A stretch of DNA of 64,000 nucleotides from Tridacna crocea (GCA_943736015.1 OX031069.1:20217235-20281234), one strand, 5' to 3'. Shown: positions 14,566 through 60,546, counted from the stretch's first letter. The notes: generated from the letters alone by a model not told the origin. A program made the numbers and translations.

Positions 14566-14909
14566 TTAACTCTTTATCAAACGGCAAAATTTTAGACTTG
14601 TCCAAATTAAAAGCATTTGCAGGCTCAAATATTGAAATTTATTTTTGGAAGGGTAGAAAACATTGTGGGACTATGTCTTCAAAAGGCTTCTTTCTCAGGG
14701 TCGTTAAAAGTAGGGATTGTGTGGTAAAGAGTTAACACATAACCAAACGACAAAACTTTAGAATCAAAAGCATTTGCAGAAGACAAAATAAAAGTGACTG
14801 AAAATTCGCAATTTGTTTAGTGAAGGGTAGAAAACATTGTCCCACTATGTTTTCAAAAGGCTTCTTTCTCAGGGTCGTTAAAAGCAGGGATTGTGTGGTA
14901 AAGAGTTAA
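14566..14909 (-). mobile_element. Pair of hairpin-less family A MITEs (second segment copy)
   Basis: Counterpart of 817-1186 in the duplicated segment, with the shared TTAA at 14732-14735. The first element has lost an internal stretch around 14625. Confidence 0.75.
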
Positions 14910-16644: not shown

Positions 16645-17331
16645 TTATAGCTTGAACCTTTTGCTATCCTTAATAAAAGACTGCACTTCTAAAAATACTG
16701 TTACATTTTCTTGAAAGGTAAGGCTTTCGTCACCGTACAGCAGAACATCCAAACTGACAGTTGTGAATTTCTCAATATTTGCAAAAAGCTTATTTCTAGC
16801 GATATTATAATATCCACACTCTAACAGATAATGGTGACTAGTTTCAATTCCACCACATTGACACAAAGGCGAAGCAACTAAATTTTTTTGGAACAAGTCA
16901 GAATTTAGAGAGCTACATTTATTACGCAGTCTAGTGTGGATAATTTGATATTCTCTTTCACCAATAAAATAAAGCTTATTAGGTATAGGTTTATCCCTGT
17001 CAAGATATGTCTTAAAGGCTGGAAGGGAATCTAAATTTCTAATGTCATCGGGCAGAGCATTCCAATCGTCCACCACTGACGGAATAAAAGAATTCTTATA
17101 CATTGAAGTTCTACAAGCAATGCCTTGGAGATCGTTAGCTCGTCGCAGATTATAATTCGTAGAATTTCCGACCGTATCTGGGACTAAAGACGATAAATAA
17201 GCAGGAGTAATGCCCTTAATCATTTTAAAAAATAGAATTAATTTGTGTTTTTTCCTTCTATCTCTCAGCGATTCCCATCCTGCTTCATTTATATGATAAT
17301 CCAGTGAAACTAGTTTAGTGCAGCCAGTCAC
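16645..17331 (-). pseudogene. LINE polyprotein C-terminus with zinc-knuckle-like motif
   Basis: Carries LRDRRKKHKLILFFKMI, then a C-x-C-G-G-x-E-T-x-x-H-H-x-L-L-E-C motif at about 16811-16866, found at the C-terminus of many LINE polyproteins, and an intact stop. It continues the frame opened upstream once the frameshift is allowed for. No start codon of its own is needed. Confidence 0.8.
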
Positions 17332-17777
17332 AATTCTTGCCGATTCATTTTGAACTTTTTCAACATCATTTTTAAGTACTCGGGAATATTATCCCAAATA
17401 TTATCAGCATATTCTAAGACTGGTCTTATGAACGAAAAATAGATTATTTGTAGTGTGTGCCGATCTAGCTTAAACTTTAATGCTCTCATGATATTAACTC
17501 CATTCCATGCTTTTTCTAATGTTATCTTTATATGATAATCCCAAGATCCATTACAAGAAAAATAAAGCCCAAGATGTTTATGCACTTCTACATTAGGTAT
17601 ATTAATGTTTGACATGTTAAGATCCGGGTGGACAGGTTTCAGTAGTTTCTTTGATACAATAAGGGATTCAGATTTTGCGGTGTTGAATTTCACCAGCCAT
17701 TTCCTCGCCCAACAAGCCATGGAACGAATTGGTTTTGGAACGAAAAAGCCCAGGGTCAGTTGGAAAATTTGTATCAT
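17328..17777 (-). pseudogene. LINE reverse transcriptase, thumb region (upstream frame)
   Basis: WARKWLVKFNTAKSESLIVS, HKHLGLYFS.NGSWDYHI and IRPVLEYADNIWDN are the post-catalytic motifs of LINE reverse transcriptases. The frame ends at a stop just after KMNRQEL. Shifting by one base at about 17355-17365 continues into EKVQNESARIVTGCTKL, so a single-base indel broke the gene. Confidence 0.8.
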
Positions 17778-18084
17778 TACACCAATAAAAAGCTATGAGC
17801 GAGAGATGCTATTTTCAATGAAAAATAAGTATCTCAACTATCGATTGCTTCATCCAATGTATTTTCATATGCCATTTCAAACTACATATCTGAGTGCCAC
17901 CGAAAAACTCATTTGCCTGAGAAACAATGAGTTTAACTGGGTTTATTTCCTTCGGCTTTGCACAAAATAAGATACATGGTTATCAAAATTCAATCTTGAA
18001 CTCATAGTGGTATTGTTTTCGACAAATACCACAAAAACCAACTCATGTCAGATCCTTTATATCTAACCGACTGACCTACCGACG

Positions 18085-48252: not shown

Positions 48253-51200
48253 TAATAATGATAATAATAATAAAGTTACCATCTCCAGGGAGGGTTGGTC
48301 TCTTCGGCCTGTTTGGGAGCTGAAGGTTGGCATACAAACTCCCCCTTCTGTGTCCACCTGAAAATAGACAATTCGACGTTTTAATGACGACTTTGTTTTT
48401 TAAGATTCAGACAAGCTTTATACTGCTCTTCAAGACAATCACGCGTTAAAGTAATCCTGTAAGAGAAAGATTTGAAAACATTGCAAGAAATGCTTTCACC
48501 AAATGTCTTTACCCTTTCAAAGGCATGCTAGTATAGACGATATTTGTTATTTACGGTTAAATATTTTCACGAGTGGCGCGGCCATGAGTGAAAATATTTC
48601 CGATGATGTTCACTTGATGAAATAAATTTCAATCTTTCATCGAAGAAAACAAATATTCTATTCATTTCGTGCTTTTAACTATTTCTTTTTGGGAATTTAA
48701 TGAAATCCAGTACAGTTCTTTCCCCGTGGCTTACCCCCTTCCGCTCAGTAAGGTATAGAGGATATTTGTTTTTTTCGGTGTAAGATCGAAATTTATTTCA
48801 TCGAGTGGACACCATCGGTAATATTTTCACGAGTGGCGCAGCCACGAGTGAAAATATTACCGATGGTGTTCACGAGATGAAATAAATTTCGATCTTACAC
48901 CGAAAAAAACAAATATTCTATTTATTTTATGCTTTTAACCCTTTCTGGGAGGAGCTTTATCAAAATTCAGTACAATTTTTTTCCCTCATTCCCCGTGGCG
49001 TACCCCTCCCGCATAGCAACGTGACGTCAAGCGCGAGAAATGTAAGGTATATGACGTCATATTTCCCATCTGGTTGTTAGGCACGCGCAATTTACCTAGG
49101 CAACAAGAACGTGAAAATCGGTATTTTCACTGGTGTAAGATCGAAAAATATTTTCACTGCTATTTCTCAATATCCCACCGGAAAGCATGAAATAAATTAC
49201 AATATGACGTCAAGGACGAGAAACGTAAGGTAAATTACGTCATATTTCCATCTAGTTGTGAGGCACGCACATTTTACCTAGGTACCTGCGCGGAAATACC
49301 TGTTTTCACCTTCAGTTGAAGAGTTAGTATATAAAAATTGGTATTTTCACCAGTTGTAATGATGAAATATCGAAATATTGAAAGATATTTCACCGATATA
49401 TCTCTATAACCTAACGGAAAGTATGAAATTAATTCCGCTATTTGTTCCGAATTCAATTTCATCTCTTTACAAATAAACTGTGCCTTGGCAAAAGGAGCCT
49501 TCATGCATCGCCGCGATGCAGACTACCAAGCAAGTCATCATATTATTCTGAATCCATAATAGCCTTTCTTTTAACAACCAACTTAATCATGAAGTTAATT
49601 GGTTCTTAGACATGCAGAAAATTAAAAGGGAAAAGTTTCGGCCCAGGTCAGCCTGCGCGGACTGCGCAGGCTGACCTGAGCCGAAACTTTTCGTATAAGC
49701 ATTAAGCCCCCTTTTCACAGAGCATGGCTATAATGCTTTCAATTCAGACAATTTTGAATTTCTTATGTCTTTTAAAAGGCAAATATTCAACCAGGTGTTA
49801 GTTTCTAGATGTAACCATATTTGAACTGAATTACACATTGCATTCACTGCAACACCTTTCTGCTATAAAAGGTAGATCGCCTCTAGAGGATGGCTATTCC
49901 TATCGCAGCAATAAATTGTGGTACAGTAAAATCGTCGGTGTACTTCCAAAATCTCGTAGCTACAGTTTGTGACAAGCTGTAGTTACGAGGTTTTGGAAGC
50001 ACATCGACGAAGTGCCTCAGATTTTTCAGAGCAATGGCTACAGTCCTGAATATTGATATTTGCTAGGAGGAGTCTACCAAATGCACTTTGTCATAATGCA
50101 CTGTTATTCACTTAATAAACCCTTTGGTACCAATATTCTTTTAACTCATTACCAAACGACAAATTTTAGGTTTGTCCAAATCGACAGCATTTGCAGACGA
50201 CAAAATAATAGTGACTGAAAATTTGAATTTTGTTTTGTGAAGGGTAGAAAACATTGTGGGAAAAGGAGAAAATGCTGGTTACCAGCATTTTCTCCTTTTC
50301 CCACAATGTTTTCTAAAGGCTTCTTTCTCAGGGGCGTCAAAAGTAGGGATTGTGTGGTAATGGGTTAAATGAAACAGCCAGAAAAGTACAATTTTGTCTT
50401 TAACTTTTAAGTCAATATGAAAGTGTGAAAAAGAAAAGTAATTAACCTTGCTAGGGTATAATAATGAAATGAAATGGATTCGTCCCCTGCAGAATCGGTC
50501 TATATCTTGGACAAGGCGATATATTTACTGGTTCTGCGGTGTACTCATCCAACAGAATTGAGTAATGTACTAAAGCATGTTAAATAACCTCATATTAGTA
50601 TCTTCTCTCTCCACACTGGTTTCTACCCGATCAAAAAAGTTCGTTATTTGAAACACATTCAATTTGACGTCAGCTAAATATTCCTATATGGACCAGGAAG
50701 ATGTTTTCATTCCAATATGGACCAGGAAGTTGTTTTCAATTGGGAAGAATATTATATGAAAACCATTTTATACATCAGTAAATTTCAGTAACATCATTCC
50801 ATCCAGTGTTACTTTGCTATGATATTTATAAACCAAAGCTTAGTGCAATAATTCAAGTGCCTTGTTAAAATAAAGATCTTATATAAGTGTGTGCTTACAA
50901 GTTTGAATCAAACTCTGATTATTCATACATGCAATAGATCGAATAAATAACTTGGTTCTAAGCGTTAGCCAGGTGCATTTTTTTCTCTCTAAAGAAGTAT
51001 ATTTAAGCAATTTGTCTGTTACGAGCGAAATAAATCGTTCTGGTATTGTTTTCTGTGATCATTTCTCCAGATACCATGACAACTAGCATTACCATGGAAA
51101 CATTGGTCGCCTTTTGGCATACATCAAAACGTGGACTTTATACCTGAAGTCGACAGGATTATAAACTCAAACAAAATTCTGGATTCTAGTCCATTTTTAA

Positions 51201-54200
51201 TAATCGAGACTGTTGTGTTCTGTTTTCATTCCGTTTTTTGTTTTAAAATTGGTGAAATTAACCAGTGACAAAACGACCCCCTTGTTTATACGACATTTCA
51301 TCATGTCCCCTACAATATGTTTTACCCATTACCACACAATCCTTAGTTTTGACGCCCCTGAGAAAGAAGATTTTAAAAAGCATTGTGGGAAAAGGAGAAA
51401 ATGCTGGTAACAAGCATTTTCTCCTTTTTCCACAATGTTTTGCACCCTTCACAATTCAAAATTTCAAATTTTCAGTCACTTTTATTTTGTCGTCTGCAAA
51501 TACTTTCGATTTGGACAAACCTAAAAATATTGTCGTTTGGTAATGAGTTAACTCGGGGACGAATCTATCTTAGGCCACTAAGCACGACTCGCTGATTTTT
51601 ATCGAACAGTGTAGATCAAGATCAGATTGCAAAAAAACGCGCAGTCTAGTCGTTGATCTACAATATCCGATAAGGGCATATTCGGCCTCCACTCTCTCCC
51701 CTCCCCCACCCGAAAAAAAATCCTTTGAAAAAAGCAAAATTTCGAGTTATAACTCTTAGCTTAAAAGCTTCATTCGAGGTATTCAGCAAGATAAATGTTA
51801 ACCCTCTCCCAAACAAGCCCTGGTTTTTTACGGTCTGCAGTACACATCTTTTGAAAACACTGTGGGAAAAGGAGAAATTGCTCGTAACGAGCAATTTCTC
51901 CTTTTCCCACAGTCTTTTCTACCCTTTAAGGAGAACTTTCTACCATTTTGATCGAATTTAAAATTATTGTCTGCAAACTCTTTCAGTTTGGAAGAGTCTA
52001 AAATTTGTCATTTGGATAAGTGTTAAAGAAAGACAGAGAAGCAGTTTGAGCCATGCTCTGTGAAAAGGGGTTAAATACATCTGCAAAACCTATCCACCTT
52101 TTCTGCCACTCAAGGGACCATTCTACTTCATGGTTCAGCAAACTATTGGATTTAATGACTCCATCCAAACTTTGATGATTTCCTTGCACGACGATGTATT
52201 TAATTCCCTTTTCTCCTGATCAAGACTCAATTCCATTTGTTAAGCAGGGTGTTCCATGCAGAGAGAACATTATTTATTATACTGCAAAGAAATTTCTCGT
52301 GATCTGATTGGTTAACATGCCGGGAACATAATATCACGTTCCCAAGCAAAAACCGCGTAAAACCAGTTTCCCTTTTGAGTGCCCCGTAAACATCACTACA
52401 CGTGCAATACTTCATCCAAAATGGCGGCGTCGATCGATCGCCAGACTGCACATTGATTCACCAAACTGCACGTTTTAGTGACGTCATTTTCCAGCGACGT
52501 CAGTTTTCATTGAATTGGGGCACACAGACGGGAATTTCTATTTCGTCAGCATACTCGATTCGTGAAATTACAAAACAGGAAAATTTCGCTTAACGCGCTT
52601 TGAAAGGGTAAAACTTTGCAGTATGATAAATTTGTTGTACCGTCAGGTGGCAGGGGACTTGGAAACTTGTTCACGGCTGTGGTGAATCATGTAGCCCAAG
52701 TGAGAGAAATCTGGTTTAGACTATACTGAACAAACACTGTAGATATATGGGAAGAAATATATCCAAAAAAATAGTGTGGAGAAAGGAGGAAGTACCAATG
52801 CCTTTCCAAAGTTCAATTCAATCATATGAGAAGTGTCTGCAAATGCGTTCAGTTTGGACATGTCTTAATTTTGTTGTTTATTTCATAACGTCGGTTTATT
52901 TCCAAAGCCTCGAAACTACAGCTTGTTACAAGCTTTAGTTACGAGGTTTTTGAAGTAAACTGACGATATCAATATTCAAAAAATGTATGTCAATATTCCA
53001 ACGCAAGGACAATTTAGATTCTTGATACGGCCCATACATCTACTGAAGTTTGTGATGCTAACAGACATCCATAGTCCTTGTGAGAAATATCTTAAACCCG
53101 GAAAAGCAGTACATTCTATGGTATTTGATCTGAATTTATGGCTTTTGTCATTGTTCGCTTTCCAAGTACATGTGATAGGAAATAAATGGGATAAGCACTT
53201 TTAAATAAAGATCCACTTGCAGGTTAAACGGGTATCTTCATAAATAAATCAGTTTGTTTAATATTGAAGAGAGCAGATTAAGCCGAGACTGTATGGATCT
53301 TGTTCTACAGTTTTTTTCTTATTTTTATTTGAAACGTGGCAATACACTGGCAAAGTGTTTCATAATATGTGATATCCATTACACATACAAAGACCTGATT
53401 TCTGTTTTTCAAAATTGAGTTATGCTCCTTTTTTCCCCACCCCTTCATTATTCAGTCATCTTTTTGAAAATGTTTTACTTCTGTTCTTGTCCATCTTTAA
53501 CCCTTTCCCAAAACAATTCCTGGTTTTTACGGCCCTGAGATAGAAGCCTTTTGAAAGCATTGTGGGAAAAGGAGAAAATACTGGTAACCAGCATTTTCTC
53601 CTCTTCCCACAATGTTTTCTACCATGCTGGAAACAAATTTCGATTTTTGGGTTACGTTTATTTTGTCGTTTGCAAGTGCTGTCAATGGTACTGGTCCAAA
53701 ATTTTGTAGTTTGGGAAAGGGTTAAGTCATTGAAATGGCTAGCAGTTTCTTTTCATAAGTATTTTTGTACGATATTGGATTTAAATAATACTGCAGAGTC
53801 GTATTTTAACTCGAGTTATCGAGGTTTCAGTCCCTCGGTTTATCGAGATTTTTTTCCTCGGGTTTTCGATGTTTTCCTTGAGTTAGTTTACATGTTTTGA
53901 TATTGTTGTTTCCGGATATATTCACTACATTAAATAGCTACTCCGATTACACACAAAAAAAATCAATTTGGAAAAAAAGTGTAGAATGTTTAGTACATAT
54001 ATGAATATGCATTATTATTATTAACACGGAAGAGTTACACATAGGCCATGCCAACTTTTCTGGGAAAGTACTTACCAAACTTTGAATCTGAGTTATTTTT
54101 TAAAATACCTGGGAAGAAAATTAAAAAAAAATAAATCGAACTGGTTACTTTTCGTAGCTTGCGTCTTCGTGCAGTTTGAAATAAAAAAGATCTCCTTGTA

Positions 54201-57200
54201 CAAAACACAAAACCAACCTACCCTCATCTGAATCAGAATAAAACAGAAAAAGAAAAACAGAAAAAGTCTCTTAGACTCGCCATTGAAAGATGCCATGTGA
54301 GAAAAGGGTTCTGTTTGCATTAAGGGATAAGAACCTCTGATGAGAAGATATTGGGGTTAGAAACAGGCATATGCCTCTGTGGGCCAAAAAAACAATCTGA
54401 TGAACCAACGAACGTGCAGACTGACCTAGCCATCCCATCGGCCATCAGAACATTATTACCAGTGGTCCGCAGAATCCAAATTAACACCAAACACGCTTAA
54501 CTACTCTTTAGATGCTTTTGTGGAGAGTGTAGATCACGATCATAATCCTAAAAATGCACTGTTAGTTTCGTTGCTAAATATTCTGAGAGACACATAATTT
54601 AATACTAATGGAGAATGTTCCTTGAATATTTTAGCTATTCAACGATTTAACTCATTACCACACAATCCCTTGTTTTTACGACCCTGATATAGAAGCCTTT
54701 TGAAAACATTGTGGGAAAAGGAGAAAATGCTGGTAACCAGCATTTTCCGCTTTTCCCAAACTGTTTTCTATTCAGCTGGAAACAAATTTCAATTTTCGTT
54801 TTACATTTATTTTGTCGTCTGTGCATGCTTTAAATTTGGATCAGTCTAAATTGTGCCGTTTGGTAAAGGGTTAATTTGACACTGTACATATACTTACTTA
54901 ACTCTTTACATGATAGAAATAATTTAAGACTCGTTCACAGAACGTGTAGACCAAGATAGGACCGCACCAACGTATTTGCATGCTCTTGCCAACACAGTTT
55001 AGAAAATTGGAATTTATTATTCTGATATTTTGGAGAAATACCCCTCGTTTATATCGGCATAATTTTGATATAGAAAACTACATGATTCTTTCTATCTATA
55101 CTTGGAACAGAAACCAGGGTCCGAATTCACCAACCGTTCTTAAGAACATTCGGTTTAACCAATCAGAAGTTCTGTTACTTTCACAGTCAGGAAATCTTGA
55201 AGAATGAGACCAAGAACGTTCTTAAGAATGGTTGGTGAATACGGACCCAGAGCTTCGTCCTTCTAACCATGAACGACGTCGAGGGTTCTATGATTTAGAT
55301 TTCAAAAATTGGGAACTACATACAGTCAAGCTTTCATCTTATTTTTTCATGAAATCAATTGAACCCTCTCTCTCTCTCTCTCTCTCTCATGTACTAGTTA
55401 TTTGTTGGTTTTATAATACATTTACAAACGTATTAAGAACGATTTGTCACTGCATAATTTATATATATATTTATAGAGTGAAGTGCATTGAAACCTTACC
55501 CTGAACATTCATTTGAGGTCAATCTTCTTGTGTTTTCAGCCAGTAAAATAGCAAGATTTATTTAACAAAAAAAAAAGTGAAATCTTAGATAAGAGAGCAA
55601 GTTTTGTGCAATCTGATCTTAGATTAGCACTGTCCGTAAAAAAATCACCAACGCTTGCCCTCAGAGTAAATAATTTTTACCCATTCGAAATGTTATCGTC
55701 TAGCGATTAACCCCGGGAGAAAAATAAAATCTGTGTGTCGTTACGTCATCAATCCAGACAAAATAAACGACAGAAATGTAATGACGTTTATCTGATTGAG
55801 ACAGACAAATATGTTGAAGTGGTCTGGTGCACTTTAATCTTAATTAAGCCCTCACTTATTTGAGGGACGTATTGGTGACGTAATTATGACACTATTTGAA
55901 TCGTTCAAACCACTTTAGGGACTATTTTGTATTGGGGGATGGGCCGGTGCTTGCTGGCGGCCATTATGTCCCGGTACTTTTTACGGTGCATTATCGCAGT
56001 AATTGAGAAGTCAGTTGTAAAATCAAATGCAAAGATAAAATCAGATTTGCTGACGACTTTTCTCGTCCTGCAGTGGACCACTGTCGAAATAAAATTGTGG
56101 GAACGAACAATTTCACTGCAGTTTTCCACAAAGATCTTTACTAACTCTTTACCACACGACCTAATTTTAGACTAGTTACGCCATCTGTCTGTTAAGTCTG
56201 TCCGTTAACCTTTCTGATAGTAATTTTTCCAGGGTTTTGGTTTTTCACGGTTTTTTTTTTTTAATTCTCGTTTCGTCCGAACTTTCTTACTTATTTACAG
56301 CTCCCCCTTCTCCATTTTCAGTCTCCCAGTTGTTTTTTTTTTTCGATTCTAAACCCCGTATTCACCAACCATTCTCAAGACCGTTCTTGGTCTTATTCTC
56401 CAGAATTTTCTACATTTGCAAGTAATACAACTTCTGATTGGCTAAACCATTCGGTTAAGCCAATCAGAAGTTGTGTTAATTACAAATTTAGAAAACATTG
56501 GAGAATAAGACTAAGAATATTCTCAAAAATGGTCGGTGAATACAGGCTGCATAGGTGTGCGGTCTCTACGTTTTTCATCACAGAAAAAAAAAACTCATAG
56601 ATAAATTCTTTTGATTGTTGGCATTTTTCTTGGCACCATCGATCGTACACATGGTATGTAGAATCCGATAATGATCCACGGCTCTCCCCATTCTATCAGA
56701 TTTTCTGATCCAAAAGCTGCACTGGGGTGTCTTTTTTCCCTAATGGGATTTTATGCTCGACAAAACGGGGTTTAAGACATCTCCTTTGTGCTTCACACCG
56801 AGCAAAACATCATTTTTTCATGGGTCAATCAAATCAATTTTATAGTATAACCGCCTTAATCACGAGATAGACTGGTCCTTCGGCATGCAGAAAACTTGAA
56901 AGCACGAAACAAGTACCTTGGACTTCCATGTCAGTCTTCCATGTGCAGGCTGACGTGGGTCGATAATTTTTTCAAATATATTTTACCTCCTTTTCACATA
57001 TCATGGCTCGTTTCTTAGACTAACCTTATTACTGCCAAATCCAACTATCGTCGGTTTACTTTCAAAACCTCGTAACTACAGCTTGTAACAAGCTATAGTT
57101 ACGAGGTTTCCGAAATAAACCGACTCTTTGTGTCTTGTTGTCGACAGTGTAAATCAAGATCAGGTTAAACACAACGAGCAGTTTAATCTATGATCACACT

Positions 57201-59575
57201 ACCCAATTTTAAAAGTTATAAACAGAGAAAACCTCTTTGAAGTTTTTTTTTTTTTGGGGGGGGGGATATTTTTCCAATATTGAAATGTAAACCAAGATCA
57301 GACTGAACAAAACGTGCAGTTTAATCTATGATAATAGTGCAAGATTTTTAAAGTTTTTAAACAGAGAAAACTGCTTTGAAATGCCAATTCTTTGCATATT
57401 TTAACTATCTTGAAATGTTCAATTTCTCTTAACAACCTAGGGGTTAAACAGTTCAGGCATCAAAACATTTTTGCATGTACATTTTTGTATTGCTCTCACG
57501 CTCATGCACATGACGTAACGAACAAAACACTGTATTACATACAAAATAATCCGTCACAAAAAAAAAAACACGTGATTAAAGATAAAAACAGATTCATCAA
57601 AATATGACGGATATGCCAATTGCTCATTACTTTAATCGCTCATTCCTGACTATTTCATTTTAAATTTGTTGCTAAGCAATTCGTCACGGAACTGCATTTT
57701 TGAACTCGCAAGTATACGTGAATTATAGGCAAGAGCACCATGACAGTCCTGCAACGCTCACCTGAGTTAGAGGGAAGTACTACAGTACGTCTGTTAAGAG
57801 CTCGGGTCCTGATTTTTCTATATAGTAACAGCGATTTGAACTATAGCATTCCTTGAAATCATATGGGCTACACTTTGGTGAATGACCCATTACCACACAA
57901 TCCCTACTTTTGACGCCCCTGAGAAAGAAGCCTTTAGAAAACATTGTGGGAAAAGGAGAAAATGCTGGTAACCAGCATTTTCTCCTTTTCCCACAATGTT
58001 TTGTACCCTTCACAAAACAAATTTCAATTAATTTTTCAGTCACTTTTATTTTGTCGTCTGCAAATGCTTTCGATTTGGACCAGTCCAAATTTTTTTTCGT
58101 TTGGTAATGAGTTAAATGCATCTCTGTGATATATTTACCACGCGAATCATTGTGTAATCATGGACCAAAAAGTCAAGTTTATTTAACAACCAACTTTATG
58201 ATGCGATAACTGGTTCATAGAACTATAAAAAGTTGACCAATAGCAGAAAATTTCGGCCAAGATCAGTCTGCGCGAACTAAACAGGCTGACCTCAGTCGAT
58301 ACTTTGTGCAGATGTTTTTAATCCCCTTTTTCACCCAACATGACTCAATGGACTTTTATATGTGCATCATCCGCATATCAAGACCTGTTTCCGTGCAAAG
58401 CTTTGTAAGCATGTTTCAGAAACGGTAAAAACTAATTATACTGCAACGAAATTTCTAGTCATCCGATTGGATTAAACCTGCGTAAAACCTGCTCCTTTCG
58501 GGAGCCCCGTATATATGAATACACTATCAACACAACATCCAAAATGGCAGCGTCGATCAAGATTAAAATCAAGATATTGCGCCAAGCTGCACGTTTTGGC
58601 ACGTATTACCAAGATTTCAGTGACGCCAATTCCCAGTGACGTCATCTTTCATTGAATTAGGGGCCCTCGGAAGGAAAATTCTCCTTCGTCCGCGTACTCA
58701 ATTTTCAAACAAAAATAAAACGAGAAAATTCGCTTGACAAACGTGATAATGGTAAAACTTTGCTGTATAATAAATTAGTTGTACGGTCATGCGGCAAGGG
58801 ATTTGAAAACTTGTTCACGGCTGTGGTAAATCATGTTGCCACCTCGCATTCGGCTACGGGCGACATGATTACAACAGCTGTGAACAAGTTTCCAAGTCCC
58901 CTGCCACCTGACCGTCCAACTAATATTATATATAGCCGCCCTGCTATATGAAAAGAGGGCTTTATGCATCTGCGAAAACTATCAACCAATGTCAGCCTGC
59001 GCAGGCTGAACTGGGCCAAAACTTTTTCTACATCAGTCAATTTTCTGAATGTGAAAGGACCAGTCTACCCCATGATTATGTTGATTGTTTTACACAAAAT
59101 ATGGCCATTATGGATCCATAACTATGGATGGCTTGCCTGGCATCATGTAATACTGAGATGTATTAAGCTCCCTTTTGCCAGAGCAAGGCTTACGTCGTCG
59201 GTTTACTTCGAAAACCTCGTAACTACAGCTTGTTACAAGCTGTCGTTACGAGGTTTTCGAAGTAATCCGGCGACATGATTGTATTCCATTTATTTTTATA
59301 TAAAGCTACTGCGAACTTGACTTTTAATGACGCCCTTAAACTTGGATCACGCATTCGCAGTTCTGTAAAAAAAAAATTATTTGCATTACCCAAAATTTGC
59401 AATTAGCCAATAGGTTAGACTGTAATCCTTGTCACTGACAATTTTCCTGTGGCAAAACGGACCGTACTCTGCACAATAGCTTTCCTTCAGTATTTCGAGC
59501 TCCTATGCGCTTAGAAAATAGAACCTTACCCTGTTTCTTGTATTCCTCCGCGTCTTTTCTGTCTTGTTCATCCAT
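21271..59575 (-). CDS. SLC4: SLC4-family Na+-coupled bicarbonate transporter (NBC/NDAE-like), spliced gene, 22 coding exons
   Basis: Plasma-membrane transporter moving bicarbonate/carbonate with Na+, possibly exchanged for Cl-, in pH regulation and epithelial or shell-forming ion transport (family knowledge). The 22 minus-strand exons have matching phases at every junction and sum to 3105 nt, 1034 residues plus TAA, a usual NBC length. Residues about 53-370 form the cytoplasmic band-3 domain with REIAYKA (324-330) and IRIEPP (359-364). Residues about 405-960 form the membrane domain with [10 protein letters not shown] (449-458), [18 protein letters not shown] (482-499), SDFAV (692-696), DDRGWFISP (728-736), FLDQQITAV (761-769) and [10 protein letters not shown] (802-811). 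These patterns match Na+-coupled SLC4 members better than anion exchangers. The subtype (NBCe, NBCn, NDCBE or NDAE) cannot be fixed by reading. The first listed exon follows a splice acceptor, so 5' UTR exons lie upstream. Confidence 0.93.
21608..21830 (-). mobile_element. Family A MITE
   Basis: CCAAACGACAAAGTTTTAG at the left, hairpin centre TGGTTACCA near 21742, GGTAATGAGTTAA at the right. It lies just upstream, in transcription order, of the last transporter exon. Confidence 0.8.
21827..21924 (-). mobile_element. Family A MITE, end fragment
   Basis: Shares the TTAA of its neighbour and carries only the TTTGTCCAAATTGAAAGC and GACGACAAAATAAAAGTG end before diverging. Confidence 0.65.
22617..22748 (-). 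CDS. SLC4: SLC4 coding exon 21, end of membrane domain
   Basis: 44 codons, residues 946-989. [11 protein letters not shown] joins the helix begun in exon 20. Then [12 protein letters not shown] (the acidic L-D-D-L motif at the start of the C-terminal tail) and a short charged tail. Acceptor CCTCTTACAG, donor GTATAT. Confidence 0.95.
22779..22925 (-). mobile_element. Family B MITE, truncated
   Basis: Starts TTAACCCTTTACCCCATAAG and runs to GGCAAAAGGTGAAATTGCTC, matching the reverse of the family B copy at 319-536, then diverges. Confidence 0.6.
23380..23556 (-). CDS. SLC4: SLC4 coding exon 20
   Basis: 59 codons, residues 887-945: [24 protein letters not shown], then two hydrophobic helices ending GFPLM. 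The F-x-x-R-x-x-L-F pattern and Y-L-R-H/Y-V are conserved. Donor GTAAAA is weak, but the phase and the continuation into exon 21 are exact. Confidence 0.95.
23705..24160. mobile_element. Family G composite: fold-back hairpin plus TIR body
   Basis: Fold-back with arms of about 80 bp (TCGGTGAAAGATCGAAATTT .. AAATTTCGATCTTTCACCGA) around GGCGTAGCC, then the body with inverted ends TTTATTTCATGC and GCATGAAATAAA. In the intron between transporter exons 19 and 20. Confidence 0.8.
24264..24332 (-). CDS. SLC4: SLC4 coding exon 19
   Basis: 23 codons, phase 0-0, residues 864-886: [19 protein letters not shown] then [17 protein letters not shown] is a family hallmark. Acceptor TCTGTTACAG, donor GTAATT. 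Confidence 0.96.
24461..24684 (+). mobile_element. Family A MITE with variant hairpin loop
   Basis: A-type ends (CCCTTTCCCAAACAAGCCC; GTTTGGGAAAGGGTTAA). The hairpin reads GGAGAAATTGCTCGTAACG and its complement, with both arms changed together relative to the common GAAAATGCTGG form. Confidence 0.8.
24905..24977 (-). CDS. SLC4: SLC4 coding exon 18
   Basis: 73 nt, residues 839-863: [19 protein letters not shown] then ITNILK. The R-E-Q-R-x-T start and following transmembrane helix are conserved in the family. Acceptor ACGTTCAG, donor GTATTT. Confidence 0.95.
25358..25536 (-). CDS. SLC4: SLC4 coding exon 17, TM9-TM10
   Basis: Residues 780-839: [38 protein letters not shown]. This is the most conserved block of Na+-coupled SLC4 proteins. 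Acceptor TTGATTGCAG; donor GTACGT; the final Arg codon is split AG/G with exon 18. Confidence 0.97.
25656..26153. mobile_element. Family F composite: fold-back hairpin plus TIR body
   Basis: Fold-back 25656-25796 (TTGTACGGTCAGGTGGCAGG and its complement), then the body 25815-26153 with inverted ends TTATTATAGTGCAAAG and CTTTGCAGTATAATAA. Sits in the intron between transporter exons 16 and 17. Confidence 0.8.
26425..26527. mobile_element. Family F fold-back with short body remnant
   Basis: The end ACTGCAGTATAATAAACTCG joins a shortened fold-back (GTACCGTCAGGTGGCAGGGG .. GCCACCTGACCGTAC). Confidence 0.7.
26651..26815 (-). CDS. SLC4: SLC4 coding exon 16, TM8-TM9
   Basis: 55 codons, phase 0-0, residues 725-779, with [27 protein letters not shown] and NRKE, nearly identical in pattern to vertebrate NBCn and NDCBE proteins. 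Acceptor CTATTTATAG; donor GTTGGT is non-optimal but keeps the frame. Confidence 0.96.
27458..27718. mobile_element. Family C MITE, 261 bp
   Basis: GGCTTGCAACACGCGAAAAG to TTCCCGTGTTGCAAGCC. Two internal GC-rich palindromes (CAGTCTGCGCAGTCCGCGCA and its partner copy) lie inside long terminal inverted repeats. Preceded by ATAT. Confidence 0.85.
28289..28650 (-). CDS. SLC4: SLC4 coding exon 15, extracellular loop, TM6-TM7
   Basis: Residues 604-724. Sequons NLT (610) and NIS (617) and cysteines at 615, 635 and 647 complete the glycosylated loop. Then [15 protein letters not shown] (654-668), SDFAV (692-696) and [11 protein letters not shown] family A MITE sits about 45 bases upstream of the acceptor in transcription order. 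Donor GTACGT. Confidence 0.96.
28696..28926 (+). mobile_element. Family A MITE near exon 15 acceptor
   Basis: TTAATGCTTTCCCAAACAAT at the left, TTTACGACCCTGAGATAG flank, full hairpin centred near 28785, TTGTTAAAGAATTAA at the right. It ends about 45 bases upstream of the transporter exon 15 acceptor in transcription order. Confidence 0.82.
29271..29732. mobile_element. Family G composite
   Basis: Same order as the copy at 23705: fold-back (arms around GGCGTAGCC), spacer AAAACAAATAATC, body TTTATTTCAGGCTTTTAACC to GGAAAGCATGAAATAAA. Confidence 0.8.
29880..30133. mobile_element. Family C MITE, decayed left half
   Basis: CCTGTAACACGCGAAAAGGG to CCCTTTTCGCAATTC. The right palindrome (GCCTGCGCGGACTGCGCAGG) is intact. 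Ends about 30 bases from exon 14. Confidence 0.75.
30163..30452 (-). CDS. SLC4: SLC4 coding exon 14, TM4-TM5 and start of large extracellular loop
   Basis: Residues about 507-604. Carries [16 protein letters not shown] (conserved R-F-T-E-E-x-F) and a hydrophobic helix to about 565. Residues 566-569 are KLFE, so the K-x-x-K stilbene-reactive motif of electrogenic NBCe proteins is absent. The loop begins with Asn-glycosylation sequons at 587 (NCT) and 597 (NDT) and with cysteines at 588, 590 and 595. Donor GTATGT, acceptor TATTTACAG. Confidence 0.95.
30611..30810. mobile_element. Family I palindromic MITE
   Basis: GGGTCTATATTTTCACAAAC to TTTGTGAATATGGACCC; the arms meet at TAAACCATTTGGTTTAGCC. 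Confidence 0.78.
31107..31309. mobile_element. Family I palindromic MITE
   Basis: GGCGCGTAATTCACCAACC to GGTGAAAACAGGCCC; the arms meet at TAAACCGAATGGTTTAGCC. Confidence 0.75.
31455..32105. mobile_element. Family H composite, interrupted by a family C element
   Basis: Fold-back from TTATTTAAGAAATAATC with CTATCGTGGTATATCGTTCA arms around GAGGGCGATAGCCCG, then a body with inverted ends TTCTAACATG and CATGTTAGAA. 31751-32015 is the foreign insert plus its ATAT duplication. Confidence 0.8.
31751..32011. mobile_element. Family C MITE inserted in a family H element
   Basis: Exactly 261 bp, flanked by ATAT at 31747-31750 and 32012-32015. The second family H copy at 40340-40370 is the uninterrupted target (CACTCGATATAGGATGACG). 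Confidence 0.92.
32223..32356 (-). CDS. SLC4: SLC4 coding exon 13, TM2-TM3
   Basis: Residues 463-507, carrying the SLC4 hallmark [18 protein letters not shown], which in solved SLC4 structures lies around the substrate site. The donor must be read TGC-AA/GTAAGT, giving phase 2 and a shared Lys codon with exon 14. Acceptor TTTTCCTCAG. Confidence 0.96.
32775..33225 (-). pseudogene. Tandem decayed copies of the 3' end of transporter exon 12
   Basis: At least five blocks (about 32780, 32850, 32911, 33062, 33173) repeat on the minus strand the end of exon 12 (AACGTGACGTTTGGGGGTCT .. CACTGACCAATATATG) with its donor GTGAGT, carrying frame-breaking indels. The block at 32911 has lost the donor GT (GAGAGC); the block at 33062 keeps GTGAGT. 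Confidence 0.8.
33252..33426 (-). CDS. SLC4: SLC4 coding exon 12, first transmembrane segment
   Basis: Residues about 404-462, starting [20 protein letters not shown] (the conserved G-L-x-x-D-I-K-R-K-x-P-F entry to the membrane domain) and ending [14 protein letters not shown]. Hydrophobic segment at about 433-446. Donor GTGAGT. Decayed copies of the 3' end of this exon lie in the following intron. Confidence 0.96.
33455..34012. mobile_element. Family K MITE in the intron before exon 12
   Basis: CATCTTCGCAAGCCAAGG at the left and CCTTGGCTCGCGAAGATGG at the right are inverted repeats. About 558 bp, with the same internal text as the copies in the duplicated segments. It ends about 30 bases from exon 12. 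Confidence 0.7.
34026..34590. mobile_element. Three decayed family A-like elements in a row
   Basis: One minus-oriented (34028-34242) and two plus-oriented (34238-34345 and 34374-34584) elements carry the A end motifs and incomplete hairpin arms. Confidence 0.55.
34627..35153. mobile_element. Family C MITE (outer), interrupted by another family C copy
   Basis: GGCTTGCAACGCGCGAAAAG on the left and CCGCACGTTGCAGACC on the right; its body resumes after the inner element at GTCTCGGATATGCCTG. Confidence 0.8.
34802..35062. mobile_element. Family C MITE (inner), 261 bp, with GTCT duplication
   Basis: GGCTTGCAATACGCG to CACGTGTTGCAAGCC, flanked by GTCT at 34798-34801 and 35063-35066. Removing it and one GTCT restores the family C text ACTGTCTCGGAT. 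Confidence 0.9.
35178..35278 (-). CDS. SLC4: SLC4 coding exon 11, linker to membrane domain
   Basis: Residues 371-404, beginning KHRKMSS and carrying an Asp/Glu/Gly run. This is the hydrophilic linker between cytoplasmic and membrane domains, which is poorly conserved. Donor GTAAGT follows a GT dinucleotide, so exon phase decides the junction: ending in GT (phase 2) joins exon 12 as GTC. Confidence 0.85.
35669..35941 (-). mobile_element. tRNA-derived SINE, best copy
   Basis: On the minus strand: GATGGCTCAGTGGTAAGCG (A-box region), then GTTTTTGAGTTCGATACCCG (B box), a body of about 170 bases, then GCGGCGTTAAACCCCAATAC and ACCAACCAACCAA repeats. A 3' end of GCGTTAAACCCC with short tandem repeats is typical of animal SINEs widespread in molluscs (family knowledge). 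It lies in the intron between transporter exons 10 and 11. Confidence 0.8.
35980..36126 (-). CDS. SLC4: SLC4 coding exon 10, end of cytoplasmic domain
   Basis: 49 codons, phase 0-0, residues 322-370. Contains REIAYKA, an acidic helix, [11 protein letters not shown] and IRIEPP, the signature closing the cytoplasmic domain of Na+-coupled SLC4 proteins. Acceptor TTTCCCCCCAG; donor GTAAGT. Confidence 0.96.
36181..36513 (+). mobile_element. Family A MITE with two extra copies of its first 50 bp
   Basis: TTAACCNATTACCACACAAT and the next 30 bases occur at 36181 and 36231, then a full element starts at 36281. Hairpin centred near 36370; the right end is GTGGTAAAGAATTAA. Confidence 0.85.
36510..36686 (+). 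mobile_element. Family A MITE, left end missing
   Basis: Shares the TTAA of the preceding element and begins directly at AAAACACTGTGGGAAAAGG. Full hairpin centred near 36548; ends GGTAAAGAGTTAA. Confidence 0.8.
36696..36780. repeat. Family D hairpin element
   Basis: GACTTTTTGCAGACAGTGTA leads into AAGATCAGATTGC .. GTGCAGTCTGATTTTTGATC; the tail TATCTGATAAGGGCACATTT recurs near 51665. Confidence 0.65.
36932..37147 (+). mobile_element. Family A MITE, hairpin mostly lost
   Basis: TACGATCCTGAGATAGAACCC and CTGCTGGAAACAAAGTTC flanks are intact, but the hairpin is reduced to GGGAAAAGGAGTCAATGCC. Confidence 0.7.
37545..37658. repeat. (GGAA)n microsatellite touching the exon 9 donor
   Basis: GGAA repeats with an internal (GCAA)n block. 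On the transcribed strand this is (TTCC)n starting at intron position +4 of exon 9. Confidence 0.95.
37662..37746 (-). CDS. SLC4: SLC4 coding exon 9, cytoplasmic domain
   Basis: 85 nt, residues about 293-321, ending [14 protein letters not shown], matching the family's hEIGRxIxxLMtDE helix. FSPKGQ stands where vertebrate proteins read LGPxGK. Donor GTATTC is weak and runs directly into a (TTCC)n tract on the transcribed strand. Confidence 0.93.
37796..38193. repeat. Tandem duplication of about 200 bp with GAT-rich tract
   Basis: Two copies (about 37796-37998 and 38001-38193) each run from a (GAT/GAC)n tract to GACTATTCCATCTGGTAAAG, sharing GGGTATCAACACTTCTTGAC. Lies between exons 9 and 8. 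Confidence 0.85.
38353..38510 (-). CDS. SLC4: SLC4 coding exon 8, cytoplasmic domain
   Basis: Encodes residues 241-293: [20 protein letters not shown], then [15 protein letters not shown] and EVKLPTR. The F-M-K-K-I-P-x-G-x-E and E-K-P-x-x-A-F-x-R-L patterns are strongly conserved in NBC-type SLC4 proteins. Acceptor TGTTAACAG; donor GTACGG. Confidence 0.95.
38570..38804. mobile_element. Family C MITE, internally deleted
   Basis: GGTTTGCAATACGCGAAATG to GGCGCGTTGCAAGCC; the central palindromes are shortened. Directly followed by another copy. Confidence 0.78.
38811..39071. mobile_element. Family C MITE, 261 bp, with ATAT duplication
   Basis: GGCTTGCAACATGCGAAAAG to CGCGCGTTGCAAGCC, flanked by ATAT at 38807-38810 and 39072-39075. 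Confidence 0.88.
39355..39437 (-). CDS. SLC4: SLC4 coding exon 7
   Basis: 83 nt between acceptor TGATTTCAG and donor GTAACT; residues about 213-240, Ser/Thr/Asp-rich, ending GLVSQDYK. This is the variable linker of the cytoplasmic domain. Recognition rests on position, phase and splice sites more than on sequence. Confidence 0.85.
39611..39804. mobile_element. Family I palindromic MITE
   Basis: AGTATTCGCCAACCATTTTT to GGTTGGCGAGTGCGAGCCC; the arms meet at TAAACTTAATGGTTTAGCC. A one-arm fragment lies at about 39165-39260. Confidence 0.75.
40069..40449. mobile_element. Family H composite, uninterrupted
   Basis: Same as 31455-32105 without the insert: fold-back arms around GGGCGATAGCCC, body TTCTAACATGGCCAATTC to GTGTCATGTTAGAA. 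Confidence 0.82.
40903..40986. repeat. Family E hairpin with the family C core
   Basis: AAAAAGTATCGACATCGGTC and AGTTTCGACATCGGTCAGCC-type arms enclose GTCAGCCTGCGCAGTCCGCG, the same GC-rich palindrome as in family C. Related copies at 42195-42291, 49613-49722, 58234-58334 and 58961-59035. Confidence 0.7.
41930..42156 (-). mobile_element. Family A MITE
   Basis: TTAACTCTTTACCAGACGAC to GTTTGGGAAAGGGTTAA; hairpin centre TGGTTACCA near 42070. Confidence 0.82.
42195..42291. repeat. Family E hairpin element, shortened palindrome
   Basis: AAAAGTTTCGGCCTAGGTC .. GACCTGAGTCGGTACTTTTC around CCTGCACAGG, then the ATGCATTAAGCCC tail. Confidence 0.65.
42325..42801. mobile_element. Family F composite
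   Basis: Partial fold-back 42325-42428 (one arm shortened), spacer AACAAA, then the body 42432-42801 with inverted ends TTATTATACTGCAAAG and CTTTGCAGTGTAATAA. Carries GACGCCACCATTTTGGATG. Confidence 0.78.
43150..43336 (+). mobile_element. Family A MITE
   Basis: Full hairpin centred near 43201 and the right flank TTGTTGTCTGCAAGTGC; both ends are degraded. Confidence 0.75.
43714..43975. mobile_element. Family C MITE
   Basis: AGCTTGTAACACGCGAATAG to CGCGTGGTCCAAGCC; the right palindrome is intact, the left one diverged. Confidence 0.8.
44459..44524. repeat. Family D hairpin element
   Basis: AGATCAAAGATCAGACTGCA with GATCAGACTGCACGTTCTGT closing on GCAGTCTGATC, then TTTGCCGTCCGCAGAAGTCA. Cleanest copy here; others at 62815-62876, 63320-63366, 60122-60172, 51608-51660, 36715-36775 and 26292-26330. 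Confidence 0.7.
45094..45307 (-). mobile_element. Family A MITE
   Basis: TTAACTCTTAACCAAACAAA to GTTTGGTAAAGAGTTAA. Hairpin centred near 45219 with loop GGTTTCC. Confidence 0.8.
45662..45811 (-). CDS. SLC4: SLC4 coding exon 6, cytoplasmic domain
   Basis: 150 nt, phases 1 to 1, residues about 163-213. Starts [13 protein letters not shown] and continues into a basic His/Arg-rich stretch ending in RRRESLG; such variable basic segments occur here in NBC-type proteins. RRES is a second potential basophilic kinase site (inference). Donor GTAAGT, acceptor ATTTTTAG. Confidence 0.9.
46039..46266 (-). mobile_element. Family A MITE
   Basis: TTAACTTTTTACCAAACGAC to TTTGGTAACGGG; hairpin centred near 46180. 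Confidence 0.8.
46346..46555 (+). mobile_element. tRNA-derived SINE head / tRNA pseudogene
   Basis: TTTGGCTCAGTGCTTAAGG (A-box-like) and GGAGTTCGAATCCTGCCC (perfect B box) are correctly spaced, but the flanking bases do not form an acceptor stem, so this is not a working tRNA. About 110 bases of unrecognised body follow. Confidence 0.5.
46915..47075 (-). CDS. SLC4: SLC4 coding exon 5, cytoplasmic domain
   Basis: Encodes [20 protein letters not shown] and onward to AELS (residues about 110-163). The W-x-K-F-E-E-x-V-E-x-G-G-x-R-W-S-K-P-x-V pattern is diagnostic of the SLC4 N-terminal domain. Acceptor ACTTGTTAG and donor GTATGA are both consensus-like. Confidence 0.95.
47272..47506 (+). mobile_element. 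Family A MITE
   Basis: TTAGCCATTCACCACACAAT to GTCTGGTAAAGGGTTAA; hairpin centred near 47359. It ends about 15 bases from exon 4's donor. Confidence 0.8.
47522..47690 (-). CDS. SLC4: SLC4 coding exon 4, start of cytoplasmic band-3 domain
   Basis: The exon runs from acceptor ATTTATAG to donor GTAAGA. It encodes residues about 53-109, ending in EWRETAR, the conserved entry to the SLC4 cytoplasmic domain (families have E-W-x-E-T-A-R-W). The junction with exon 5 splits the Arg codon as AG/G and restores ETARWVKFEE. Confidence 0.9.
48216..48273. repeat. (AAT)n microsatellite
   Basis: AATAATAAT tract with two interruptions, a few bases inside the intron after exon 3. Confidence 0.95.
48280..48357 (-). 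CDS. SLC4: SLC4 coding exon 3
   Basis: Acceptor TATTTTCAG and donor GTAACT enclose 78 nt in phase 1-1, encoding [14 protein letters not shown] followed by a proline/arginine-rich stretch to residue 53. HRRGS fits the basophilic kinase (PKA-type) consensus RRxS, an inference only. An (AAT)n tract begins a few bases inside the downstream intron. Confidence 0.8.
48531..49440. mobile_element. Family G composite, diverged, split by a younger copy
   Basis: The left part, 48531-48755, ends near CTCAGTAAGGTA. The body resumes at about 49197 with TTACAATATGACGTCAAGG and ends GGAAAGTATGAAATTAA. One fold-back arm is shortened. Confidence 0.7.
48756..49196. mobile_element. Family G composite nested in an older copy
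   Basis: TAGAGGATATTTGTTTTTTT to GGAAAGCATGAAATAAA. The fold-back arms are almost perfect and the copy is much less diverged than its host element. Confidence 0.8.
49613..49728. repeat. Family E hairpin element
   Basis: AAAGTTTCGGCCCAGGTCAG .. CTGACCTGAGCCGAAACTTT around GCGCGGACTGCGC, followed by GCATTAAGCCCCCTTTTCAC, a tail shared by several copies (42262, 58307, 61055). Confidence 0.7.
49932..50009. repeat. Family J hairpin (about 78 bp)
   Basis: CGTCGGTGTACTTCCAAAAT and its complement ATTTTGGAAG-type arm form one stem around TTTGTGACAAG. Further copies are at 52889, 57048 and 59195. Confidence 0.75.
50141..50367 (-). mobile_element. Family A MITE, near-perfect
   Basis: TTAACTCATTACCAAACGAC to GTGTGGTAATGGGTTAA, with a complete hairpin centred near 50280. 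Its flanks match the copies at 51322 and 57883 (the CTTTTGACGCCCCTGAG subgroup). Confidence 0.87.
50368..51321. other. Intronic stretch without recognised features
   Basis: AT-rich intron sequence between exons 3 and 2. No exon, RNA gene or repeat family of this window was recognised, apart from a short local repeat of ATATGGACCAGGAAG near 50690-50735. Confidence 0.5.
51322..51551 (+). mobile_element. Family A MITE
   Basis: TTACCCATTACCACACAATC to TTTGGTAATGAGTTAA; the hairpin centred near 51407 has loop TGGTAACAA. Confidence 0.85.
51798..52026 (+). mobile_element. Family A MITE with variant hairpin loop
   Basis: Same CTCGTAACGAG loop form as the copy at 24461 and the same flanks, so these two form a subfamily. 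Confidence 0.8.
52274..52692. mobile_element. Family F composite, fold-back reduced to one arm
   Basis: Body 52274-52630 with inverted ends TTATTATACTGCAAAG and CTTTGCAGTATGATAA, then TTTGTTGTACCGTCAGGTGG and one fold-back arm. Carries ATCCAAAATGGCGGCGTCG. Confidence 0.78.
52889..52965. repeat. Family J hairpin
   Basis: CGTCGGTTTATTTCCAAAGC with AACTACAGCTTGTTACAAGC at the apex and TGAAGTAAACTGACG at the end. Confidence 0.75.
53497..53725 (+). mobile_element. Family A MITE
   Basis: TTAACCCTTTCCCAAAACAA to TTTGGGAAAGGGTTAA; full hairpin centred near 53585; TTTTTACGGCCCTGAGATAG flank subgroup. Confidence 0.82.
54076..54108 (-). CDS. SLC4: SLC4 coding exon 2 (33 nt)
   Basis: A TTCTTCCCAG acceptor and GTAAGTAC donor bound 33 nt that stay open only in the phase required by exon 1 (the joined codon is GGT), reading [11 protein letters not shown] plus one base. 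It is too short to be recognised by homology; support is splice sites and phase. It may be an optional cassette, since skipping it keeps the frame. Confidence 0.6.
54647..54874 (+). mobile_element. Family A MITE
   Basis: TTAACTCATTACCACACAAT to TTTGGTAAAGGGTTAA; hairpin centred near 54735. Confidence 0.83.
55117..55249. mobile_element. Family I MITE, left arm deleted internally
   Basis: GGGTCCGAATTCACCAACC to TTGGTGAATACGGACCC; the left arm is cut from about 85 to about 35 bases. Confidence 0.72.
56353..56547. mobile_element. Family I palindromic MITE
   Basis: CCCCGTATTCACCAACCATT to GGTCGGTGAATACAGG; the arms meet at TAAACCATTCGGTTAAGCC. Confidence 0.76.
57048..57123. repeat. Family J hairpin
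   Basis: TCGTCGGTTTACTTTCAAAA to CCGAAATAAACCGAC around GCTTGTAACAAGC. Confidence 0.78.
57883..58115 (+). mobile_element. Family A MITE, reference-quality copy
   Basis: ACCCATTACCACACAATCCC left end, CTTTTGACGCCCCTGAG flank, roughly 50-bp perfect hairpin centred near 57971, TTTTCAGTCACTTTTATTTT right flank, TTTGGTAATGAGTTAA end. Confidence 0.87.
58434..58921. mobile_element. Family F composite
   Basis: Body 58434-58774 (ends ATTATACTGCAACG and CTTTGCTGTATAATAA), then the full fold-back 58779-58921 (GTACGGTCATGCGGCAAGGG .. CCCTGCCACCTGACCGTCC). Confidence 0.78.
59195..59273. repeat. Family J hairpin
   Basis: CGTCGGTTTACTTCGAAAAC to TTCGAAGTAATCCGGCG around GCTTGTTACAAGC. It lies in the transporter intron 1 region, about 260 bases from exon 1. 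Confidence 0.75.
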
Positions 59576-60251: not shown

Positions 60252-60546
60252 TTAACCCTTTACCTAAACAACAAAATTTGGGACTGGTCCAAATTGAAAG
60301 CTTTTGCAGACGACAAAAAAAAACATAATTCCATAAATGAAATTTATTTCCAGCAGGGTAAAGAAGCCTTTTGAAAACATCGTGGGAAACGGAGAAAATG
60401 CTGGTAACCAGCATTTTCTCATTTTCCCACAATGTTTTCTACCCTTCACAAAACAAATTTCAAATTTTCAGTCACTTTTGTTTTGTCGTCTGCAAAAGCT
60501 TTCGATTTGGAAAAACCTAAAATTATGTCGTTTGGTAATGAGTTAA
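60252..60546. mobile_element. Head-to-head chimera of two family A MITEs
   Basis: Both outer ends are the same (right) end of family A: TTAACCCTTTACCTAAACAA on the left and TTTGGTAATGAGTTAA on the right. The switch is at about 60360, and one hairpin is centred near 60405. Confidence 0.75.

Follow-up and report, generated by a model that had tools for sequence, protein, structure and literature searches.

Conservation of a palindromic core beyond its flanks in an abundant clan of TTAA MITEs

Why is the centre of a small mobile element conserved better than the flanks that carry it? The question is raised by a family A MITE at positions 57882-58115 of the window, the 64,000-nucleotide stretch of Tridacna crocea DNA analysed here. 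The element was found where a preliminary description had placed it. It is one of a clan of TTAA MITEs, 229 bp long, whose ends are of the piggyBac type, the termini consisting of TTAA and CYCWTTACCA. Of 100 end-to-end copies, 61 had TTAA on both sides, 34 had it on one side only and 5 lacked it, and two empty sites of the MITE each contained a single TTAA. These counts and sites support the earlier assignment as a MITE with piggyBac-type ends. The mobiliser proposed at the same time would be piggyBac-like; among 20 sampled transposase loci no autonomous partner was seen, and no locus (0/20) was seen to carry its own ends of the family A or family B type.

The centre of the element is occupied by a palindrome of 65 bp (57938-58002), in which two arms of 32 nt flank a single central base; it had been recognized before as a hairpin, with its length underestimated at 50 bp. 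A 20-nt arm matched the window 59 times at up to 3 mismatches (0.00 expected), and counting from these matches both arms stood in register at 22 places. The figure of about 26 copies given previously is reasonable when indel-bearing copies are counted as well. Models of the flanks alone found 39 left-flank places, 31 with the core adjoining, and 48 right-flank places, 34 with the core adjoining, so that conservation of the core cannot be put down solely to its use as a search query. The observation was confirmed and extends beyond the window: twenty 10-kb stretches, spread by hand over the genome, contained 204 copies of the clan, amounting to 17% of the sampled DNA. Extrapolation gives ca. 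1.07 million copies per genome (0.81-1.36 million).

Pairwise differences among 22 full window copies averaged 0.120 in the core; the averages for the non-CpG flank and the terminal repeats were 0.298 and 0.311. With 97 copies from window and sample the corresponding values were 0.143, 0.293 and 0.286. Across families the core is better conserved than the flanks. Inherited changes were depleted in the core, with a core/flank ratio of 0.35-0.47. On a tree built from flanks only, the core/flank ratio of changes fell from 0.68 on terminal branches to 0.37 on branches above 2-3 copies and to 0.13 on those above four or more.

Contrary to the invariance claimed earlier, the core is changed in two of five families, in both cases by mirrored changes; the family B core has four compensated pair changes, with flanks that are 59% different. 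Symmetric double changes across 191 cores numbered 122 against 33 expected. A functional core, as suggested in the preliminary description, is the best reading. Given that inherited changes are depleted in it, that its changes are mirrored and that homogenization is unlikely, the core looks like a symmetric cis-signal under selection during amplification. The reader of this signal may be a dimeric protein, or the core may be read as an extruded hairpin.

Homogenization of the core by gene conversion, the other option raised earlier, is unlikely because the flanks on either side of the core have for the most part the same history. Left flanks correlated with the adjoining right flanks across the core (rho 0.63; the two halves of the right flank correlated at 0.47), distances between cores followed flank distances (0.45-0.53), and 804 one-arm changes stand in the cores. 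Close left flanks were combined with distant right flanks in 22 of 190 pairs, so occasional mosaic copies are possible.

A function of the core in resident copies is unlikely since private changes of single insertions strike it nearly as often as the flank (core/flank ratio 0.66-1.13); deletions in single insertions were more frequent in the core than in the flank. The palindrome is intact mainly in lineages that go on multiplying, and the spread of the element therefore seems to depend on it. The closest precedent is found in the CMITEs of corals, whose core sequence is unrelated to the core described here.

The element at 57882-58115 represents a single copy of a short transposon. On the forward strand it consists of a left target-site tetramer (57882-57885), the left terminal inverted repeat CCCATTACCA (57886-57895), a family-specific left flank (57896-57937), a 65-bp central palindrome or core (57938-58002), a family-specific right flank (58003-58101), the right terminal inverted repeat TGGTAATGAG (58102-58111) and the right target site TTAA (58112-58115). 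The two 32-nt arms of the palindrome (57938-57969 and 57971-58002) surround A57970. The left tetramer of this copy reads ATGA in place of TTAA, which occupies that position in 74 of 100 end-to-end copies. A 20-nt arm sequence matched the window 59 times at up to 3 mismatches, with none expected, and 22 pairs of these matches were in register; the preliminary description had counted about 26 copies with both arms. The terminal repeat form TTAACYCATTACCA matched 83 times in the window at up to 3 mismatches. Models of the flanks only located the left flank at 39 places and the right flank at 48, and the core adjoined in 31 and 34 of these, respectively, so copy discovery does not depend on the core.

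An examination of 100 end-to-end copies showed TTAA on both sides in 61, on a single side in 34 and on neither in 5. The end consensus is TTAACCCTTTAC or TTAACCCATTAC, inverted at the opposite end, which fits the CC[C/T]T-like start of piggyBac elements; the CCCATT end variant deviates at the fourth base, as does the end of AmiPB4 (PMC2872659). The consensus length is 229 bp in both family A, the main family of the clan, and family B, a short and uniform size as in piggyBac-type MITEs. A search for empty sites gave 476 junction-spanning matches, many of which were MITE sequence in nested neighbours, and only two are relied upon. In the first, the insertion at L024:2429-2654 is matched by L010:9767-9996, both from stretches elsewhere in the genome, with a single TTAA at the junction. 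In the second, the insertion at 41930-42154 of the window is matched in the same way, again with a single TTAA, by 49525-49701; two more relatives of this site (58965-59189 and L013:3581-3793) are without TTAA there. The TTAA edges and piggyBac-like ends that had been proposed earlier are thus borne out by the both-end TTAA count and two paralogous empty sites. The element is a TTAA (piggyBac-type) transposon of a non-autonomous clan.

Several families of this clan are present in the window. Family A4 occurs on the forward strand at 24458-24684, where the core shows compensated pair changes when compared with the main family, and at 51798-52026. A family A copy on the reverse strand (41930-42157) is nested in another repeat, of which 49525-49701 is the insertion-free relative with one TTAA. 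The family B copies at 320-536 and 14062-14278, both on the forward strand, have different flanks and a type-2 core with a 14-nt deletion, the second being a duplicate of the first with the identical core deletion. They belong to a local duplication (320-1186 and 14062-14909) in which the family B copy with the common deletion is followed by a head-to-tail family A dimer that has lost the middle of the core and shares one TTAA. The left end of a full copy carries, at 36181-36329, three head-to-tail repeats of the initial 50 bp of the element, each beginning with TTAA.

The abundance of the clan was estimated from 20 stretches of 10 kb, hand-picked at round coordinates on 14 contigs of the genome (1.049 Gb, 31 contigs). 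These stretches contained 204 non-redundant copies, of which 97 were full-length, with 2 to 26 copies per stretch and 17.1% of bases occupied; the window contains 61 copies and 15.0%. The resulting genome estimate is 1.07 million copies (0.81-1.36 million by bootstrap over the 20 stretches). That a single clan makes up about 17% of the DNA sampled is a striking load for a 1.05-Gb animal genome. The large copy set was collected with a full-length model that included the core, and full-length matches had to reach both flanks. One stretch, L022 (G000:C8:30000001-30010000), consists of tandemly arrayed units of about 2.1 kb, each with one MITE copy. Recognised by eye from translations of the window, a LINE-like reading frame (16645-17792) and two anion-exchanger-like ones (28268-28891 and 30137-30520) mark the DNA as eukaryotic.

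The window also contains a second recurrent hairpin repeat of about 65 bp (CGTAAAGTGTCGTCTCGGATCAGCCTGCGCAG...), at 27495-27559, 30039-30103, 31791-31971, 34839-34903, 38848-39031, 43875-43937 and 49630-49692, with some pairs about 125 bp apart. It is present in three stretches from elsewhere in the genome (L015, L019 and L023), and we take it to resemble a bivalve mollusc repeat. Four more recurrent hairpin groups were noticed, at 30676-30747, 39659-39750 and 56406-56495; at 49932-50010, 57065-57109 and 59194-59274; at 23725-23847, 29296-29412 and 48778-48900; and at 31509-31588 and 40113-40194. These additional groups indicate that palindromic repeats are common in this genome.

Core and flank were compared by the number of changes per site. 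Among the 22 full copies of the window the mean pairwise difference was 0.120 in the core, 0.298 in the non-CpG flank and 0.311 in the terminal repeats. For 97 copies from window and sample together these values were 0.143, 0.293 and 0.286. The 97 copies were those of 124 aligned in which the core and both flanks were well covered, and a tree was built from their flanks only; CpG-prone flank columns were removed from the counts, as were alignment columns in which most copies had a gap. Inherited core changes were depleted. The core/flank ratio was 0.68 (0.58-0.79) on terminal branches, with 371 core and 1132 flank changes. Branches that subtend two or three copies gave 0.37 (0.25-0.52; 36 and 200 changes), and those that subtend four or more gave 0.13 (0.03-0.27; 8 and 129 changes). 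In a tree of the 22 window copies alone the ratio was 0.57 on terminal and 0.20 on internal branches (Fisher p 0.003). The pairwise ratio did not fall steadily with distance: over nine distance bins it was 0.56, 0.75, 0.65, 0.48, 0.46, 0.45, 0.47, 0.49 and 0.53, the two closest bins holding 4 and 78 pairs. The deep bins (0.45-0.53) are those of old copies that have decayed everywhere.

Clusters of close copies were examined as well, using the 97 tree copies and the sequences L002-L008, which had been picked for similarity to the query copy. At four thresholds the ratio for private changes, those in one copy, was 0.94, 0.84, 0.95 and 1.14, and for changes shared between copies 0.29, 0.36, 0.35 and 0.43. 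Since picking clusters on low flank divergence biases this comparison, it was rerun with the flank columns split in two, one half serving to define the clusters and the other for the measurement. At five thresholds the private ratios were then 0.66, 0.87, 0.88, 1.13 and 1.11 and the shared ratios 0.44, 0.42, 0.35, 0.41 and 0.47. The contrast was not significant at the tightest threshold (p 0.35), and the remaining thresholds gave p 0.006 to 6e-10; these p-values are too small because the core columns enter twice. We read these counts as constraint on propagating lineages and near-neutral decay after insertion. The private ratio of 0.66 in the tightest clusters and the terminal ratio of 0.68 leave room for a somewhat lower mutation rate in the core.

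Deletions add a different aspect. Distinct deletions numbered 34 in the 65-bp core and 32 in 164 bp of flank, a per-base density about 2.7-fold higher in the core. Three of the 34 core deletions were shared between copies, one being the local duplication and two in unrelated copies, and two of the 32 flank deletions were shared, again by unrelated copies. Apart from the one local duplication no clearly inherited deletion was found in core or flank, so the deletions show no more than a fragility of the palindrome in copies that stay in place. The lack of inherited core deletions was rejected as proof that the core is needed, since flank deletions are not clearly inherited either.

Covariation between the arms was counted over 32 pairs per core in 191 cores, the number left from 195 full ones after removal of the units of the L022 array; L002-L008 were kept. 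Among the changed cells 804 were altered in one arm and 186 in both. The both-arm changes were complementary in 122 of the 186 cases, compared to 32.6 expected with independent arms; as inherited changes are counted repeatedly, this is evidence of symmetry and not a number of events. Clustering of the cores gave two clusters of at least three, holding 142 and 10 of the 191. The ten type-2 cores, which are members of family B, differ from the main type at four pairs, all of them compensated and none uncompensated (G:C to C:G, A:T to T:A twice, and G:C to C:G). The other 28 of 32 pairs are identical between the consensus cores of families A and B. These families have the same 229-bp length, end letters and core register, and their flanks are 59% different. 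By our own arithmetic, the chance that four changes per arm fall on matching pairs, 4 of 32, with the right letters is about 3e-7. Pair 11 is a G:T tie in the family B consensus; two other consensuses that were built have no tie.

Compensated changes extend beyond family B. Family assignment placed 112 of 157 copies in five families of at least three and 45 in smaller clusters. The core of family A4, with four copies (24458-24684, 51798-52026, one in L018 and one in L003, both stretches from elsewhere in the genome), has three pair changes, all three compensated and two of them at pairs that are also changed in B. The core is unchanged in two further families, one of ten copies with flanks 17% different and one of three copies with flanks 25% different. 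On the flank tree a mirrored T:A to C:G change at one pair recurs in separate clades. Compensated changes also recur at several other pairs among the 191 cores. The preliminary description had called the core invariant across subfamilies and better conserved than the flanks. The better conservation across families holds, as does the identity of the core in two families. Strict invariance does not, in view of the mirrored pair changes of A4 and B and of private changes that accumulate near the flank rate (0.66-1.13).

We consider it probable on balance that the central palindrome is a two-fold-symmetric cis-acting signal that is needed for, or strongly favours, amplification of this non-autonomous TTAA clan. 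Put most cautiously, it is a symmetric signal on which selection acts in cis while the element amplifies. The signal would act during transposition, and copies with a damaged palindrome would persist but leave few descendants. When letters change in a successful lineage, both arms would change together. The reader of the signal may be a symmetric DNA-binding assembly, most simply the dimer of a piggyBac-type transposase. Mirrored changes are explained by a dimer site, at which a new binding specificity alters both half-sites alike. The transposases of piggyBac and piggyBat bind palindromes via the paired C-terminal domains of the dimer (PMC11707139). Of the two explanations offered in the preliminary description, a functional core or gene conversion, the functional core is the best reading and gene conversion is disfavoured. 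Several observations count against a cis-signal: the palindrome is far longer than the 19-bp palindromes of piggyBac, the private ratio in the tightest clusters (0.66) and the terminal ratio (0.68) lie below one, the pairwise ratios are uneven, family B has the tie at pair 11, deletions fail to separate core from flank, and no autonomous partner was seen at 20 sampled transposase loci.

These 20 loci come from a search for the mobiliser, in which the piggyBac transposase domain PF13843 gave at least 118 matches in the genome with 116 of 196 candidates scored; among the matches listed, at least 27 were nearly full-length and without stops. Ends were inspected beside 19 of these 27 and beside one match with stops. 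Four loci start TTAACCCTTTATATACGA, two start TTAACCCTTTCAGTGCGGGA and two share the right end TTAACCCATTTATGCC; six of the 20 start CCCTTT, four of these CCCTTTA, and the remaining loci had no clear ends within reach. Own ends of family A or B were not seen at these 20 of at least 118 matches. Three piggyBac-domain repeats on different chromosomes (G000:C5:7868714, C15:28712879 and C18:17584065) are alike on both sides of the transposase and have MITEs inside. They were rejected as composite autonomous elements since their near-identity covers the whole sampled stretch beyond the MITEs, so that the MITE pieces at fixed places are read as passengers of a larger repeat. Two more transposase loci show an inward family A end, which at C13:14433496 is part of an entire MITE copy and at C15:5015016 is a right-end fragment near +960, past the probable element end at +893. 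At G000:C1:49496002-49497096, where degenerate core-like pieces lie on both sides, the sequence upstream of the piggyBac-domain gene resembles an exon followed by an intron, and this transposase is possibly a domesticated gene.

The main alternative to a dimer site is that the palindrome acts as extruded DNA, a hairpin or cruciform, which aids amplification via replication or repair and in which pairing is selected and not the letters; breaks or template switching, for example, could copy the element. Recognition or repair of such a hairpin likewise agrees with the length of the palindrome, with the complete consensus pairing of its 32-bp arms and with the base-pair flips. Pairing is kept as letters change, both in the four flips of family B and in the recurrent compensated changes at other pairs, and the core is prone to deletion. 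However, the 28 letter-identical pairs of families A and B go beyond the needs of pairing alone, and the flanks are not generally reshuffled at the core, with one symmetric recombinant noticed. We regard extruded DNA as a possible but rather unlikely explanation. Tentatively, a palindrome that is read or repaired as a DNA structure in transposition could turn cut-and-paste into net amplification, and this would account for about a million copies. If so, selection for pairing would be visible as covariation inside a transposon, and an intact palindrome would mark the copies able to spread.

The stem might instead be a processed RNA hairpin, a small-RNA precursor with a function for host or element, and the RNA fold of 57935-58005 is indeed a 31-bp hairpin of −52.3 kcal/mol (z −13.1). 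The window had no Rfam match at gathering thresholds, and no strand-specific RNA signature was found among one-arm transitions that keep G-U pairing (213 and 206 by strand), which gives no sign of a single transcribed strand. Furthermore, resident copies are not clearly protected, so a small-RNA role is not favoured, and such a precursor appears unlikely. We find it slightly more doubtful still that the contrast between core and flank is a mutational or sampling effect of few CpGs, low mutability or detection via the core. The core does contain few CpGs, some private ratios are below one (0.66-0.68) and the collection model for the large set includes the core. Nevertheless CpG-prone flank columns were removed, flank-only models recover copies with their core and full-length matches had to reach both flanks, and this effect explains neither the compensated pairs nor why private and inherited changes differ.

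Exchange between copies was judged from the flanks. Distances in the left flank correlated with those in the near half (rho 0.63) and the far half (rho 0.46) of the right flank about as strongly as the two right-flank halves correlated with each other (rho 0.47). Core distances correlated with flank distances (rho 0.45-0.53), and core divergence climbed with flank divergence from 0.025 to 0.243. Close left flanks were combined with right flanks more than 0.3 apart in 22 of 190 pairs; the reverse case was found in 2 of 33. In the copy at 60252-60546 two right halves face in opposite directions about a single core; TTAA stands at each outer edge, and the halves differ like separate subfamilies. 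This copy and the discordant pairs suggest that mosaics with their junction at the core may exist, as a few copies or as one family, and the candidates include members of a family with a main-like left flank and a differing right flank. Homogenisation of the core by gene conversion, among copies or between arms, could draw on these discordant pairs, the low core divergence across families and the mirrored arm changes, but is the least probable explanation, since left and right flanks correlate across the core, core divergence tracks that of the flanks and 804 one-arm changes were left uncorrected.

No description of the element was found in the open-licence literature, where core 15-mers returned one unrelated poplar paper, and the core pattern had 0 occurrences in viral contigs. 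The clan resembles CMITE, the MITEs of Acropora corals (Wang et al. 2010, PMC2872659), in its TTAA site and piggyBac-like ends, in an interior that is more conserved between families than the terminal repeats, and in tandem arrays. Here the interior is more conserved across families than both terminal repeats and flanks, and tandem arrays lie at 817-1186 and 14566-14909, both without the hairpin core, and at 36336-36688. CMITE differs by its length of about 100 bp, compared to 229 bp here, by another internal sequence, and by about 1600 copies in A. millepora as against about a million. A 29-nt part of the CMITE internal consensus had no match in the window at up to 3 mismatches, and BLAST gave short matches at chance level only. 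The CMITE authors suggest a role of the interior in transposition, proposed without a test, and their description leaves open the huge copy numbers and conserved interiors of MITEs; the portions of that paper covered here report no test of private against inherited changes or of arm covariation (PMC2872659). In the present clan, the comparison of private and inherited changes over very many copies puts most of the constraint on spreading lineages and not on resident copies. The role of the interior is also testable, as symmetric palindrome mutants are predicted to keep mobility better than one-arm mutants.

PiggyBac and piggyBat are likewise of the TTAA type, and their transposase dimers bind palindromes near the ends, of 19 bp in piggyBac and imperfect in piggyBat, whereas the clan has one interior palindrome of 65 bp (PMC11707139). 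Bacterial REPINs are also short non-autonomous hairpins with compensatory changes on both sides, but they are associated with RAYT transposases and their conserved parts are at the two tips and not in the middle (PMC3116915); the likeness is an analogy and not kinship. The kind of element, a TTAA MITE with a conserved interior, is known from CMITE. As far as one can tell, the palindromic covarying interior, the constraint mostly on propagating lineages and the abundance are new.
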